Positions 12,843 to 22,649 of a stretch of DNA of 24,307 bases are shown in pieces (the first letter of the stretch is position 1; every line of letters starts with the position of its first letter). The stretch is from a virus, in IMG/VR virus record IMGVR_UViG_3300025098_000276, positions 1 through 24,307 of that record, one strand, 5' to 3'. Under the pieces are notes generated by a model that made no database searches, was not told the origin of the DNA, and saw only the letters and a list, made by a program, of their open reading frames with translations. The position numbers and the translations under genes are program-made.

Positions 12843-12866
12843 TACAGAATGATTATGGAGATTGAC

Positions 12867-13481
12867 ATGACACGTATTGAAGGTAGCATATCAGATCTTG
12901 AGTATAACACATACTGCTTGAATTTTGCATCGAAGCAAAACAAGGGTAGCCGTACACGTGATTCTGAGAAGGCCAAAGTCTATCTGGCTGAGCACCATGC
13001 TGAGAATCAGTTCACCTCTAACTATCGTATGCACTCAATCGAAGACGTCCAAGCCCTGGTAGATCGTATCCAGAAGAGTGAGGTCTTTGCAGGCCATAGG
13101 CCAAAGATTGGTTCACAATATTTCAACCGTCCTATTAAGGTCATCCCTACACGGTCTAACCGGTATGCAGGTGAGGCGTTCTACTATGACCGTGAGCTGA
13201 AGATTTCTACTACTGAGCTGGCTGGTGCTATGATGCTCTATACAGTCATCCATGAGATGGCACACATGGCTGGTAACCTGCACCATGGACGTACGTTCCG
13301 TAACTGCCTCCTTGATCTTGTCAAAGAGTTCATGAGTGACGAGGACCATGATATACTACTGAATGAGTTCAAGAAGTCTAAGCTACAGATTGGTCCTGCC
13401 AATAAGCCCAAGACCTATGAGCAATGGAAAGCAAATCGTGTACGTATGGAAAAGGTACGTGCTGCAAAGGGAGTAAAGTAA
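12867..13481 (+). CDS. SprT-like zinc metalloprotease
   Basis: 204 residues. The catalytic signature is HEMAH at 129-133, followed by HHGRTF at 139-144, matching the SprT-like HExxH...HGxxF layout in which two His and a third downstream His bind zinc and the Glu is catalytic. The preceding strand (FYYDRELKISTTELAG) fits the fold. SprT/Spartan proteins cleave DNA-bound proteins; the phage substrate is unknown. In-frame ATGs lie at 12849 and 12855, but ATGGAG is the ribosome binding site of this promoter cassette, so the ATG at 12867 is the best start. The C-terminus is basic (KPKTYEQWKANRVRMEKVRAA), perhaps nucleic-acid binding. The TAA overlaps the next ATG. Confidence 0.82.
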   Translation: MTRIEGSISDLEYNTYCLNFASKQNKGSRTRDSEKAKVYLAEHHAENQFTSNYRMHSIEDVQALVDRIQKSEVFAGHRPKIGSQYFNRPIKVIPTRSNRYAGEAFYYDRELKISTTELAGAMMLYTVIHEMAHMAGNLHHGRTFRNCLLDLVKEFMSDEDHDILLNEFKKSKLQIGPANKPKTYEQWKANRVRMEKVRAAKGVK

Positions 13482-13783: not shown

Positions 13784-13791
13784 TATAAATA
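13784..13791 (+). promoter_or_regulatory. T4-type late promoter for the tandem internal-protein-like genes
   Basis: Exact TATAAATA 29 nt before the ATG at 13820. The leader contains AGGATATTACA as ribosome binding region. All four tandem genes behind it are spaced by 9-12 nt, so one late transcript is expected. Confidence 0.75.
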
Positions 13792-13808: not shown

Positions 13809-13860
13809 AGGATATTACAATGCTAAGTAACAAACAGAAGATGGATCTCCTCATGGAGTC
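13809..13860 (+). repeat. 5' cassette repeat, copy 1
   Basis: 52 nt running from the AGGATATTACA leader through the first 13 codons. It is identical to 14881-14932, differs at four positions from 14121-14172, and is more diverged in the leader at about 14489-14541. The four copies head the four tandem genes and are likely recombination points. Confidence 0.85.
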
Positions 13861-14122
13861 ACTCGAGTCTGTCGATGAGATGCGCCGCGGCGCAGACGGC
13901 AGATTGCGTGGCCAACTGTTTTCATTTGACAAAGATCTCCAGAAGTATGCAGAAAGATTTAAGGCCGCTGTATATTCGCTCTTGAATTCTGGCGAACAGG
14001 TCAATCAGGAGTTCAAAAGCGTTGGCATTGATCTTGACAAAATAAGTCGCCAGCTACAGAATATACCGGCTGCTGGTCTTGAGTCATCGTATCAACCAAC
14101 AGACACAGACACAGACACATAG
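13820..14122 (+). CDS. Tandem late protein 1 with prohead-tag-like N-terminus
   Basis: 100 residues. It starts with MLSNKQKMDLLMESLE, shared with three downstream genes. LME (11-13) and SLE (14-16) resemble gp21-type prohead protease sites ([LI]-x-E). The body is helical and charged; FKSVGIDLDKISRQLQNI near the end is related to FKRYGIDLEKLQSQ in proteins 2 and 3. The tail TDTDTDT is coded by a short GACACA-type microsatellite. AGGATATTACA precedes the ATG. A capsid-packaged internal protein is inferred from the tag, the late promoter and the tandem layout; no enzymatic motif is visible. Confidence 0.8.
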   Translation: MLSNKQKMDLLMESLESVDEMRRGADGRLRGQLFSFDKDLQKYAERFKAAVYSLLNSGEQVNQEFKSVGIDLDKISRQLQNIPAAGLESSYQPTDTDTDT

Positions 14123-14131
14123 GATATTGCA

Positions 14132-14488
14132 ATGTTAAGTAACAAACAAAAGATGGATCTCCTTATGGAGTCCCTCGAGGCCGTTGAGAGTGATAGCAAA
14201 AGCCTTAACGAAGATTTGAAAAAGCATAACACGACTGTTTATTTTACCAACGATTTATCAAACGACGATCGTATTGCGCTTGGAATAAAGAGATTGTCGA
14301 TGGCCATCTTTCAACTCACGCGGGACGATCTTGATGATGGACCTGCTAAAAGAAAGTTCATACTGGACAAGTTCAAACGGTACGGAATTGACCTTGAAAA
14401 GCTGCAATCACAGGCTTTCAAGATCAAGAGAGGCGATTTTAACTATCCGCCAGAAAAGAAGCCAGACCGTGGCCCGTTCGGCGTATAA
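14132..14488 (+). CDS. Tandem late protein 2 with prohead-tag-like N-terminus
   Basis: 118 residues, paralogous to protein 3 at both ends. The tag MLSNKQKMDLLMESLEAVES leads to a possible second site LNE at 25-27. The middle (NTTVYFTNDLSNDDRIALGIKRLSMAIFQL) corresponds to a diverged middle in protein 3. The 3' part is nearly identical to protein 3: KFILDKFKRYGIDL, then GDFNYPP and PDRGPFGV, with 43 identical bases (14353-14395 and 14743-14785). The mature product would be a small, highly charged protein of about 90 residues. Late expression from 13784 is expected. Function unknown; an internal head protein is inferred. Confidence 0.8.
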   Translation: MLSNKQKMDLLMESLEAVESDSKSLNEDLKKHNTTVYFTNDLSNDDRIALGIKRLSMAIFQLTRDDLDDGPAKRKFILDKFKRYGIDLEKLQSQAFKIKRGDFNYPPEKKPDRGPFGV

Positions 14489-14500
14489 GGAAATAACGTA

Positions 14501-14881
14501 ATGCTAAGTAACAAACAGAAGATGGATCTACTTATGGAGTCTCTTGAGGCCGTTGAGAGTGATAGCGAAAATATTAACGAAGCCCGCGGGCCTTTGCAAA
14601 ACAAGATGACGCCTGTTTATTTTGACGACTCGTTGTCAAACGACCCTAATGTTGCGTTTGCGATAGAGGCATTTATAAGTTCCATCAGACATCTCTTGTA
14701 TATCGGCGATGTTGGAGCCGCGGGAGGTGGATCTGCTAAAGAAAAGTTCATACTGGACAAGTTCAAACGGTACGGAATTGACCTTAAAAAGCTGAAATCA
14801 CAGTTATACAGCATCAAGACAGGCGATTTTAACTATCCGCCAAAAGAAGAGAAGCCAGACCGTGGCCCGTTCGGGGTATAA
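14501..14881 (+). CDS. Tandem late protein 3 with prohead-tag-like N-terminus
   Basis: 126 residues. The tag is the same as in protein 2, with a clear second [LI]-x-E site INE at 25-27 followed by Ala-Arg, much like the E-A cut in T4 internal proteins. The middle differs from protein 2 (TPVYFDDSLSNDPNVAFAIEAF) and carries a Gly-rich insert (GDVGAAGGGS). The end is shared (FILDKFKRYGIDL, GDFNYPP, PDRGPFGV). The leader AGGAAATAACGTA differs slightly from the other copies. Genes 2 and 3 are a tandem duplication in which the middle diverged fastest. Function unknown; an internal head protein is inferred. Confidence 0.8.
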   Translation: MLSNKQKMDLLMESLEAVESDSENINEARGPLQNKMTPVYFDDSLSNDPNVAFAIEAFISSIRHLLYIGDVGAAGGGSAKEKFILDKFKRYGIDLKKLKSQLYSIKTGDFNYPPKEEKPDRGPFGV

Positions 14882-14932
14882 GGATATTACAATGCTAAGT
14901 AACAAACAGAAGATGGATCTCCTCATGGAGTC
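14881..14932 (+). repeat. 5' cassette repeat, copy 4
   Basis: 52 nt identical to 13809-13860, although the bodies of the two genes are unrelated beyond it. This suggests recent recombination or gene conversion confined to the leader and tag. Confidence 0.85.
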
Positions 14933-15344
14933 TGTACGTAGCGTACAAGAACCTGAGATGATTACCGAGGGGATTGTCGATCGAATTAGAGACTTTGTAG
15001 GTGACGCTCGTGATGCACTGAGTGACGTAGGTGATAGAATCGTTGACTTCTTTGATGAGTTCGACCTTAGCGAATTCGCTGCGTCAATTAAACAGTTCTT
15101 TAGTAACCTGAGTAGCGGTGGCAACGACCCAATTCAAGGGCATCTTAATCGACTATACAACCTGTACCTTGAAAAAATGGATGACGATGAAGATGGTATA
15201 GACTATCGTCTCATGGGAACCTTCCTTGATAAAGACGTGGAAGACTATGCACGTGCAAATGATGTGCCAGACGTCAAATTCCTTCAAGGTCTGGTATTGG
15301 CCGCCATTATTGGCCGTGGTCAAATCGGCGACTATAAAGTATAA
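14892..15344 (+). CDS. Tandem late protein 4 with prohead-tag-like N-terminus and distinct body
   Basis: 150 residues from the ATG at 14892, chosen by identity with the other three starts; an in-frame ATG at 14862 lies inside gene 3. After MLSNKQKMDLLMES the sequence departs from the others and carries a second candidate site ITE at 24-26 before Gly. Residues about 28-75 form an amphipathic helical region (IVDRIRDFVGDARDALSDVGDRIVDFFDEF), then a Gly/Asn linker and a C-terminal domain (LNRLYNLYLEKMDDDEDGIDYRLMG, YARANDVPDVKFLQGLVLAAIIGRG). No family is recognised. A different cargo attached to the same tag is the simplest reading. Confidence 0.8.
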   Translation: MLSNKQKMDLLMESVRSVQEPEMITEGIVDRIRDFVGDARDALSDVGDRIVDFFDEFDLSEFAASIKQFFSNLSSGGNDPIQGHLNRLYNLYLEKMDDDEDGIDYRLMGTFLDKDVEDYARANDVPDVKFLQGLVLAAIIGRGQIGDYKV

Positions 15345-15367
15345 AAATAAATTGAAAAAAAATGCGA

Positions 15368-15394
15368 AGGGGCTATGTACAACATGGCCCCTTT
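15368..15394 (+). terminator. Hairpin terminator with early -35 box at its apex
   Basis: AGGGGCTATG (15368-15377) pairs with CATGGCCCCT (15383-15392), ten base pairs around the loop TACAA, followed by TTT. It ends the tandem late operon. TGTACA (15376-15381) covers the top of the 5' arm and the loop. The same hairpin, with loop TCAT, recurs at 20001-20024. Confidence 0.75.
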
Positions 15395-15404
15395 GTGCTA
15401 TAAT
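15376..15404 (+). promoter_or_regulatory. Early-type promoter nested in the terminator
   Basis: TGTACA at 15376-15381, a 17-nt spacer made of the 3' terminator arm, and TATAAT at 15399-15404. It drives the small genes from 15435 on. Confidence 0.75.
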
Positions 15405-15434
15405 GGACTTATATAATGATGAAGGATATACATT

Positions 15435-15647
15435 ATGGGACTATACAAGATCGAAAAGAACGGCGAGGTCGAACAGGTCGCAGCTGGTAAGGTAGACTAT
15501 AAAGATATGGTCACTGCGCTTATGGAGATCAGTGAGGCAGACAAAGACATCTACGCCGAAGTCATCTCCTATTATGAGGATAACACCGCATGTATGGACG
15601 TTACTACGTCTGACGGAAGCTTCTATAAAGGATATGTCTACCTATGA
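15435..15647 (+). CDS. Small acidic early protein
   Basis: 70 residues, unrecognised. It has a short beta start (MGLYKIEKNGEVEQVA), one helix (DYKDMVTALMEISEADKDIYAEVISYY) and a closing strand pair (ACMDVTTSDGSFYKGYVYL). AAGGA lies 9 nt before the ATG. Its TGA overlaps the next ATG (ATGATG at 15644), so the two are coupled. The early promoter and small acidic fold are typical of phage host-takeover proteins, but nothing specific is visible. Confidence 0.75.
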   Translation: MGLYKIEKNGEVEQVAAGKVDYKDMVTALMEISEADKDIYAEVISYYEDNTACMDVTTSDGSFYKGYVYL

Positions 15648-15889
15648 TGAAATTTAGATTGAGGTTTATTATACGCGATGACAATCTTGGTGCTCAGGAT
15701 TTGTTTGACATGTTGAATCGGTACAAGCTTAAGCTAGAACTGATAGAACCAAATGGACCAGGTACGTTTGGTCTAAACCCCGAAGTGATCGTCACCGGCA
15801 ACGCACATGACGTAATAGCATTTAAGAATGCGTTTGATGATGGAACGTTCGACTTTTATCATATGGCAGTGATGGGAAAGGATGAGTAA
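15644..15889 (+). CDS. Small alpha/beta early protein
   Basis: 81 residues, unrecognised. The pattern is beta-alpha-beta-beta-alpha (FRLRFIIRD, AQDLFDMLNRYKLK, LELIEPNG, PEVIVTGNAHDVIAFKNAF), as in small ferredoxin-like or ACT-like folds. The 71-residue protein at 17873 has a similar layout (CEVVVNG, ISKRQLTDMAVSAGLEIEHID, RFSAIIKGTIEDMMKFRNE), so the two may be remote relatives. Translation is coupled to the previous gene. An ATG at 15647 is an equally good start. Confidence 0.7.
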   Translation: MMKFRLRFIIRDDNLGAQDLFDMLNRYKLKLELIEPNGPGTFGLNPEVIVTGNAHDVIAFKNAFDDGTFDFYHMAVMGKDE

Positions 15890-16307
15890 TACGATGAGTA
15901 ACGAAGAAATCAAAGCGTTAAGTGAAGAAACGTTAGACTATACTTTAGACTATGACCAAGATGGTCTGTGGTTATTACAAGGTGATAAGCAAGTAAGCCT
16001 GATTCCTCAACAAATGTTTGATGACCGTATCCGTCAAATTATAAGACAATCAAAGTCACTCGATCGACTAGCTCAGTATGATCAAGAAGATGAAAAGGAA
16101 ACACCACTGTATCGAACCGAAACAATTTCAACAGATGAACTCACATTAAGAAGGCTAAAATATTCCCTTCAAAACTGTAAAGAAAATCGATATGAAATGG
16201 ATAAAAAAAGAGATATGAAGGGATGGACAGCACTTAATCAACAAGATTGGAATGAGTTGATAGAAGATATTCATGCCTTAGAACGCGTAATTGATTTTTT
16301 GGAGTAA
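15882..16307 (+). CDS. Hypothetical acidic early protein (MSNEE N-terminus)
   Basis: 141 residues from 15882, or 137 if the in-frame ATG at 15894 is used. The latter gives MSNEEIKALSEE, which parallels MSNEEMNSWMRD in the next gene. The protein has beta strands early (LDYDQDGLWLLQGDKQVSLIP), then long helices (DRIRQIIRQSKSLDRLAQ, TLRRLKYSLQNCKENRYEMDKKRDMKGW) and ends LIEDIHALERVIDFLE. It is probably a helical or coiled-coil protein. No family recognised. Overlaps the previous gene by 8 nt at the 15882 start. Confidence 0.65.
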   Translation: MSNTMSNEEIKALSEETLDYTLDYDQDGLWLLQGDKQVSLIPQQMFDDRIRQIIRQSKSLDRLAQYDQEDEKETPLYRTETISTDELTLRRLKYSLQNCKENRYEMDKKRDMKGWTALNQQDWNELIEDIHALERVIDFLE

Positions 16308-16311
16308 TATG

Positions 16312-16575
16312 ATGAGCAACGAAGAAATGAATAGCTGGATGCGTGACCTCCGTGAAGGAGATGATGATGATGATGATGATGATGTCGATTCTACGATAAC
16401 AAATGGAAGCTTCGTACGGTTCCATGGTCCTGATGAGGGAAGTCTGTTCCTCGTCAGTGGGATTGATTACCCTAAAGGGTCTACAAGAGCTGACCTCAAA
16501 GTAATCAACATGGATACTGATCAACCTTGTACGATCACTATCGACCGTAAGCTGATATTTAAAACATTCTCGTAA
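16312..16575 (+). CDS. Small protein with poly-Asp run
   Basis: 87 residues from the ATG at 16312. GGAG at 16301 supports either the ATG at 16309 or that at 16312, and 16312 gives the MSNEE start seen in the previous gene. An eight-residue Asp run, coded by a GAT microsatellite at about 16359-16382, separates a short N-terminal helix from a beta domain (TNGSFVRFHGPDEGSLFLVSGIDYPKG, DLKVINMDTDQPCTITIDRKLIF) that looks like a small SH3-like barrel. Function unknown. It ends just before an early promoter cassette. Confidence 0.7.
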   Translation: MSNEEMNSWMRDLREGDDDDDDDDVDSTITNGSFVRFHGPDEGSLFLVSGIDYPKGSTRADLKVINMDTDQPCTITIDRKLIFKTFS

Positions 16576-19981: not shown

Positions 19982-20000
19982 GACAATAAACAAAATGCGA

Positions 20001-20026
20001 AGGGGCTATGTCATCATGGCCCCTTT
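20001..20026 (+). terminator. Hairpin terminator, second copy without the -35 box
   Basis: AGGGGCTATG (20001-20010) pairs with CATGGCCCCT (20015-20024), ten base pairs, followed by TTT. Flanks and stem match the hairpin at 15368-15392, but the loop is TCAT, which destroys TGTACA. Confidence 0.75.
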
Positions 20027-20033
20027 GTTGTAT

Positions 20034-20041
20034 TATAAATA
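20034..20041 (+). promoter_or_regulatory. T4-type late promoter (TATAAATA)
   Basis: Exact TATAAATA only 7 nt after the terminator T run. At the position where the sister copy at 15399 has TATAAT, this copy has TATTATAAATA. Confidence 0.7.
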
Positions 20042-22337: not shown

Positions 22338-22345
22338 TATAAATA
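22338..22345 (+). promoter_or_regulatory. T4-type late promoter (TATAAATA)
   Basis: Exact octamer 22 nt before the ATG at 22368; GGAG at 22357 serves as ribosome binding site in the short leader. Confidence 0.75.
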
Positions 22346-22367: not shown

Positions 22368-22649
22368 ATGAAATCATTTATAGAGTATCTTAACGAAGCC
22401 GAATACCAGGGTAAGAAGGTATCACTTGATAAGCCTCGACCAAACACCGGTAAGGGTGGACAGTGGGAAGTGTTCGTAATGGACGGCGACAAGGTTAAGC
22501 GGGTCACGTTCGGACAGGCTGGAAAGGGTAATCGTATCGGTAAGAGTAACAAGGACCGTAAGAAGTCTTTCTGTGCACGACACAACTGTGATGATCCAGG
22601 CCCAAAGACGAAGGCTCGTTACTGGGCATGTAAAGATTGGGAGTGTTAA
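22368..22649 (+). CDS. Small conserved late protein with prohead-tag-like N-terminus
   Basis: 93 residues. It starts MKSFIEYLNEAEYQGKK, close in pattern to T4 internal-protein capsid-targeting sequences (MKTYQEFIAEA), with LNE at 8-10 followed by Ala as a possible prohead protease site. The C-terminus RKKSFCARHNCDDPGPKTKARYWACKDW is strongly conserved in a widespread phage family; Cys69, His72, Cys74, Cys88 and Cys93 could bind metal. Late promoter and short leader upstream. A capsid-associated basic protein is the inferred role. Confidence 0.75.
   Translation: MKSFIEYLNEAEYQGKKVSLDKPRPNTGKGGQWEVFVMDGDKVKRVTFGQAGKGNRIGKSNKDRKKSFCARHNCDDPGPKTKARYWACKDWEC

Follow-up and report, generated by a model that had tools for sequence, protein, structure and literature searches.

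A marine T4-like phage carries, in one operon with a single late promoter, four small genes whose products start with the same tag of 14 residues and continue into bodies that are not all related. We think that the four genes probably form a late operon for internal head proteins, a mobile cassette array whose tag would be a capsid-targeting sequence, much as in the internal proteins IPI, IPII and IPIII of T4, which are described as having such a sequence (Mullaney and Black; Repoila et al., 1994; both as cited in PMC9026906 and PMC12373910). From the sequence we infer that the four array proteins are packaged, cleaved and injected.

The DNA analysed, hereafter the window, is the complete IMG/VR record IMGVR_UViG_3300025098_000276, of 24,307 bases. 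Its gene content is that of a marine T4-like phage: it has RNase H, PhoH, a segE-type endonuclease and T4-type late promoters. No named relative was found at the DNA level, and the nearest match of its RNase H is that of Methylophilales phage Melnitz (Kyanoviridae; 45% identity), with Synechococcus phages coming next. No capsid or prohead protease gene was recognised in the 24,307-base window, which counts against reading the array as one of head proteins.

A late operon of four tagged genes

An earlier note on this DNA had described four consecutive late genes with a common leader and tag. Indeed, the open reading frames, the shared N-terminus (MLSNKQKMDLLMES) and a late promoter (TATAAATA) are all present, the genes following one another on the + strand:

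13784..13791, + strand: T4-type late promoter TATAAATA of the array, a motif match
13809..13860, + strand: leader and tag of copy 1, the same 52 nt as at 14881-14932
13820..14122, + strand: tagged gene 1, 100 aa, with an acidic body distantly related to 2 and 3
14132..14488, + strand: tagged gene 2, 118 aa, pI 9.6 for the body after E27
14501..14881, + strand: tagged gene 3, 126 aa, pI 9.2 for the body after E27
14881..14932, + strand: leader and tag of copy 4, identical to those of copy 1
14892..15344, + strand: tagged gene 4, 150 aa, acidic body unrelated to the others, predicted all-helical
15364..15396, + strand: strong terminator-like hairpin at the end of the array, 15 bp, -24.4 kcal/mol, z -5.9

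From the first base of the motif at 13784 to the ATG of gene 1 there are 36 bases. This is the single late promoter of the array, none being found directly before copies 2-4. Over the whole window the motif occurs 11 times forward and never in reverse, with 2 occurrences for the backward control. The same motif TATAAATA is reported in T4 and KVP40, and NATAAATA in S-PM2 (PMC2984593). Such a consensus match supports the view that the array would be expressed late, from a T4-type promoter. At the other end, contig L017, from a relative, keeps the hairpin 3' of gene 4. In the window, promoter, genes and hairpin thus have the appearance of a single unit, of which at least the part running from gene 3 to the hairpin is common to both contigs.

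Two observations concern the surroundings. A hairpin of the type GGGGCTATGT...CATGGCCCC is found twice in the window, at 15364-15396 and at about 19993-20026, and a promoter-like site comes after each: one of the early type at 15376-15404, which overlaps the array-end hairpin, and TATAAATA at 20034. Just 5' of the array, 12849-13481 encodes a 210-aa protein with a HEMAH motif of the zinc-metallopeptidase type and weak SprT/YgjP-like matches.

The tag and its candidate cleavage sites

All four proteins start with MLSNKQKMDLLMES, and copies 1-3 have 16 residues in common. The identity claimed for copies 1 and 4 is exact: it extends over 52 nt, 11 nt of leader included, 13809-13860 being the same as 14881-14932. 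Against 831 ORF N-termini the tag scores 62, while the best unrelated start scores 18; by this comparison, the sharing is far beyond chance. The pattern that defines the tag is M-x-S-N-K-Q-K-x3-L-M-E-[SA]. The tag and its variant (see below) were found only in the window and in three IMG/VR contigs of close relatives, a narrow distribution that counts against our interpretation. No isolate with the tag came to light, and Melnitz is without it.

The prohead protease of T4, gp21, cuts after L/I-X-E, and the T4 internal proteins lose propeptides of 10-19 residues, with targeting information in the first ten (PMC9026906). In the array, an [LI]xE motif (LME) ends at E13 in 4/4 proteins, and this site is kept in all tag variants. 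The earlier note had placed a further motif near residue 26 of proteins 2-4, and candidate second sites are found there (the slash marks the presumed cut):

14204..14212, + strand: LNE/D of protein 2, at E27
14573..14581, + strand: INE/A of protein 3, at E27
14961..14969, + strand: ITE/G of protein 4, at E26, conserved in the orthologue of contig L008

Protein 1 has no second [LI]xE site, which counts against cleavage. Furthermore, [LI]xE falls within residues 22-28 in about 6% of 390 phage ORFs and within residues 9-16 in about 8%, and proteins 2 and 3 cannot be counted as two independent cases, so that cut sites alone make modest evidence. Nor do the bodies avoid [LI]xE to a significant degree, as might be expected of proteins that are cut (1 occurrence against 2.6 expected, p 0.24). 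Cleavage at E27 would give proteins 2 and 3 a pI of 9.6 and 9.2; the values for 1 and 4 are 4.7 and 4.2. Melnitz has gp21, and its gp23 reads FLSE/AAPTN where the T4 site falls. This suggests that the specificity of gp21 is probably conserved in the family.

A variant of the tag and its indirect link to the prohead

A scan of IMG/VR with a looser pattern brought up a variant, MKSNKQKFVALMEA, at the head of a 290-aa protein in two contigs of nearly the same phage (L017:8460 and L037:4175), with TATAAATA 62 nt upstream of the gene. This start scores 34 against the tag, the best unrelated one among the 831 ORF starts reaching 18. Nothing in the window corresponds to the 290-aa body. That the tag is a detachable prefix, to be sought on other bodies, had been suggested beforehand; its occurrence on the family of bodies 1-2-3, on body 4 and, as a variant, on this third and unrelated body supports the idea at the level of sequence. 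A match of contig L036 to a wider tag pattern was rejected as due to chance, being out of frame with a gene. In the 312-kb record L038 (IMGVR_UViG_3300037502_003770, 310912), MNTNKQKLSQLIESV / MNTNKQKLSQLIESVVKEE stands at the start of an ORF and is a possible far relative of the tag, about one chance match being estimated for the pattern.

An EF-hand-like motif (KPDFVDLDNDGDTEE / KPDFVDLDNDGDTEEPMKKA) occurs in the 290-aa protein, with a match to phrog_24078 (1.2e-6). Seventeen contigs encode this motif or the 290-aa protein. In three contigs of marine T4-like phages, the genes for motif proteins lie between those of the portal (phrog_213) and of the head maturation protease (phrog_207):

L052:2923-3294: protein with EF-hand-like motif KPDFLDLDNDGDTEE
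L055:2953-3567: protein with the same motif
L060:2857-3522: protein with the same motif

These prohead-region proteins (phrog_24078) have KPDFLDLDNDGDTEE in common with the 290-aa protein that bears the tag variant, whereas the four window proteins are devoid of it. Several of those encoded in the prohead region start with MKSF...[LI]xE (MKSFLKQIEES, MKSFLKEIES), and others start otherwise. As gp67 and gp68 are said to be absent from cyanophages (PMC2984593), the KPDFLDLDNDGDTEE proteins of the portal-protease region may be their analogues. Through the variant, which heads a protein bearing a motif of the prohead region, the tag family is linked to the prohead independently of the cut motif; this link, read from sequence, is indirect and concerns the variant in a relative, not the four genes of the window.

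It is here that the most resilient of the alternatives has to be weighed, namely that the tag, never cut off and no head signal, is a helix by which the proteins dock onto something else: the tail or baseplate, host RNA polymerase, a membrane, or one another. We hold this to be unlikely, yet deserving of attention. A short helical tag under selection would fit any docking role, and residues 4-18 of protein 4 are modelled as a helix, of low confidence; packaging and cutting of the array proteins are, after all, our own deductions. In Melnitz, too, a 460-aa protein encoded just after a putative tail-fibre gene begins with a charged stretch that looks helical (MASKSKIIAELFEAD). Docking would nevertheless leave aside that [LI]xE is present at E13 in all variants and again in proteins 2-4, that the tag variant sits on a protein with a prohead-region motif, and that late promoters precede both the array and the 290-aa gene.

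The bodies behind the tag

The bodies had been described as swapped. This stands for the family formed by 1, 2 and 3 as opposed to 4, and does not for four unrelated bodies. Bodies 2 and 3 are full-length paralogues (56% identity, 2e-32), and bodies 1 and 3 share the C-terminal motif FKxxGIDLxKL.SQ, a likeness reached by 0/2000 shuffles. For body 4, the shuffle p of its similarity is 0.98 with body 2, 0.74 with body 3 and a marginal 0.03 with body 1. On these comparisons bodies 1-3 are one family, with 1 a distant member, and body 4 is unrelated to them. Ordinary tandem duplication of one family, with the common start as the core of a fold and body 4 as a far-diverged copy, would account for bodies 1-3. 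As an explanation of the whole array it is improbable, in view of the shuffle values of body 4, of the third, 290-aa body with a tag variant in L017, and of the model of protein 4, in which confidence is lowest over the tag.

Searches with the bodies returned little. No known family of PHROGs, Pfam or NCBIfam matched them, profiles of internal head proteins included, and no PDB entry matched the array proteins by sequence. Proteins 1, 3 and 4 and the tag had no convincing homologue by tblastn in 50,697 phage records, and bacterial and archaeal genome contigs contained neither the tag pattern nor body 4. The model of protein 4 retrieved only middling helical folds, designed helical proteins coming first with a Z of 6.6, and a viral structure library gave none, an absence that proves nothing, while that of protein 3 (pLDDT 52) was too poor for a fold search. 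These searches lend no support to the anti-host role proposed earlier for the bodies, without refuting it; such a role, anti-restriction included, would be an extension, by analogy, from the internal proteins of T4.

Selection, exchange and probable mobility

Over codons 1-14, the five distinct copies of the tag (four in the window, one in L017) differ at 7 sites, and 7/7 are synonymous. About 83% of random changes in the tag would alter the protein (76% with transition bias), and the chance of all-synonymous variation is about 4e-6 to 4e-5 if the sites are independent, which they are not fully because the copies exchange sequence. Seven variable sites that are synonymous only point to a tag selected as a protein; the direction of this effect, as seen in the codons, is clear. 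Hence it is very improbable that the identity matters at the level of DNA or RNA – as ribosome site, translation enhancer or recombination site, spread by gene conversion, the peptide having no role – for even though the 52 nt common to copies 1 and 4 take in 11 nt of leader and copy exchange is real, tag DNA varies, silently every time, leaders differ between copies and an Rfam search of the leader for a regulatory RNA gave no family match.

The exchange itself can be followed. Gene 4 and its L017 orthologue are separated by four synonymous differences in the tag and by differences in the leader, and match at 36/36 nt across codons 15-26; genes 4 and 1 of the window match through leader and tag, with complete divergence afterwards. 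The simplest reading of these alignments is that leader and tag moved between copies of the array as a conversion tract. The array also appears to have moved as a whole. In the relative L017/L018 (21,006 bases) the glutaredoxin, segE and WYL genes follow about 12 kb downstream of the end of the array; the window has the array downstream of RNase H, about 13.7 kb past glutaredoxin. DNA identity between the two is 82-86% in the array and 68% in RNase H. Contig L019 is 99.8% identical to the window over 14423-16374 (1.95 kb), and then departs abruptly inside a gene; a mosaic junction thus adjoins the array near 16374. That the array sits at a different place in a relative supports its being a mobile cassette, with the proviso that L017/L018 and L019 both begin inside the array, where assembly errors at repeats are possible. 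The cassette locus proposed at the outset is, accordingly, supported by two signs of mobility, position in a relative and exchange of the tag among copies.

Comparison with the internal proteins of T4

Like the internal proteins of T4, those of the array are several small late proteins with a common N-terminal prefix ending in [LI]xE and with differing bodies; they are polymorphic between relatives, and two of the bodies would be basic if cut. The array differs from T4 in its tag, which contains SNKQK, is three residues longer before the LxE core and has no aromatics, and in its layout, four genes in one operon with a tag homogenised by exchange. The acidity of bodies 1 and 4 counts against the parallel, the internal proteins of T4 being basic. 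The likeness is drawn from the genes.

In the capsid-targeting pattern of T4, residues 4 and 7 serve for targeting and residues 8 and 10 for processing (PMC9026906). The array tags do not fit this pattern at T4 spacing, although their core D-L-L-M-E-S aligns with E-F-I-A-E-A of T4; the statement that the tag does not resemble that of T4 is therefore right about the spacing and wrong about the core. The profile phrog_2667 ('internal head protein') matches a MKTFAEYLTES protein of another phage and not the array proteins. Since neither the targeting pattern of T4 nor the family profiles recognised it, the array is not filed as a member of the T4 internal proteins. A T4-style tag does exist elsewhere in the window:

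22338..22345, + strand: late promoter TATAAATA
22368..22649, + strand: gene with T4-style tag MKSFIEYLNEA

The product of the latter, a basic protein of 93 aa (phrog_7595, unknown function), fits the capsid-targeting pattern of T4 and is, by its sequence, a candidate internal head protein. A second case, L018:1527-1994 (IMGVR_UViG_3300010149_000237, 13027), is an ADP-ribosyltransferase-like protein starting with MKSFKELINEQ, whose match to ART-PolyVal (1.6e-6) is just below the cut-off of Pfam; by analogy, it is a candidate for an injected enzyme in the manner of Alt of T4. Both tags of this phage group resemble those of the array in having an [LI]NE motif and differing bodies, and the window gene at 22368 is likewise preceded by a late promoter. 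They differ in their MKSF start with E10, as in the T4 start, MKTYQEFIAE, whereas the array tags lack aromatic residues. The MKSF pattern at exact spacing was found in none of Melnitz, S-PM2 and HTVC008M, so that not all members of the family have this tag. We tentatively put forward, as a possibility, that the array represents a second tag family (M-x-S-N-K-Q-K-x3-L-M-E) beside the MKSF tag, on a mobile operon, with recombination through the tag exchanging and homogenising interchangeable cassettes for head loading.

How the array may work, and what it would mean

If the array is an operon of internal head proteins, the tag, as a short helix, would bring each protein into the core of the prohead. 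A protease of the gp21 type would then cut after Glu13 and, in proteins 2-4, also after Glu26/27; the mature bodies would remain with the DNA and be injected with it. Only the tag being needed for loading, the bodies would be free to differ. Copies 1-3 would have arisen by tandem duplication, while gene 4 would have placed a different body behind the same tag, and exchange through leader and tag would keep the tags alike and could move bodies.

Were this true, loading of the head by means of a tag would be modular, would recur beyond T4 and would make use of more than one tag, and the second tag might become a tool to load chosen proteins into phage heads. The tag would also provide a simple sequence handle to find the proteins that marine T4-like phages inject; of the hosts and counter-defences of these phages, few are known. 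Because the three internal proteins of T4 each block a different GmrSD restriction enzyme (PMC12373910), arrays of this kind would be good places to seek anti-defence proteins.
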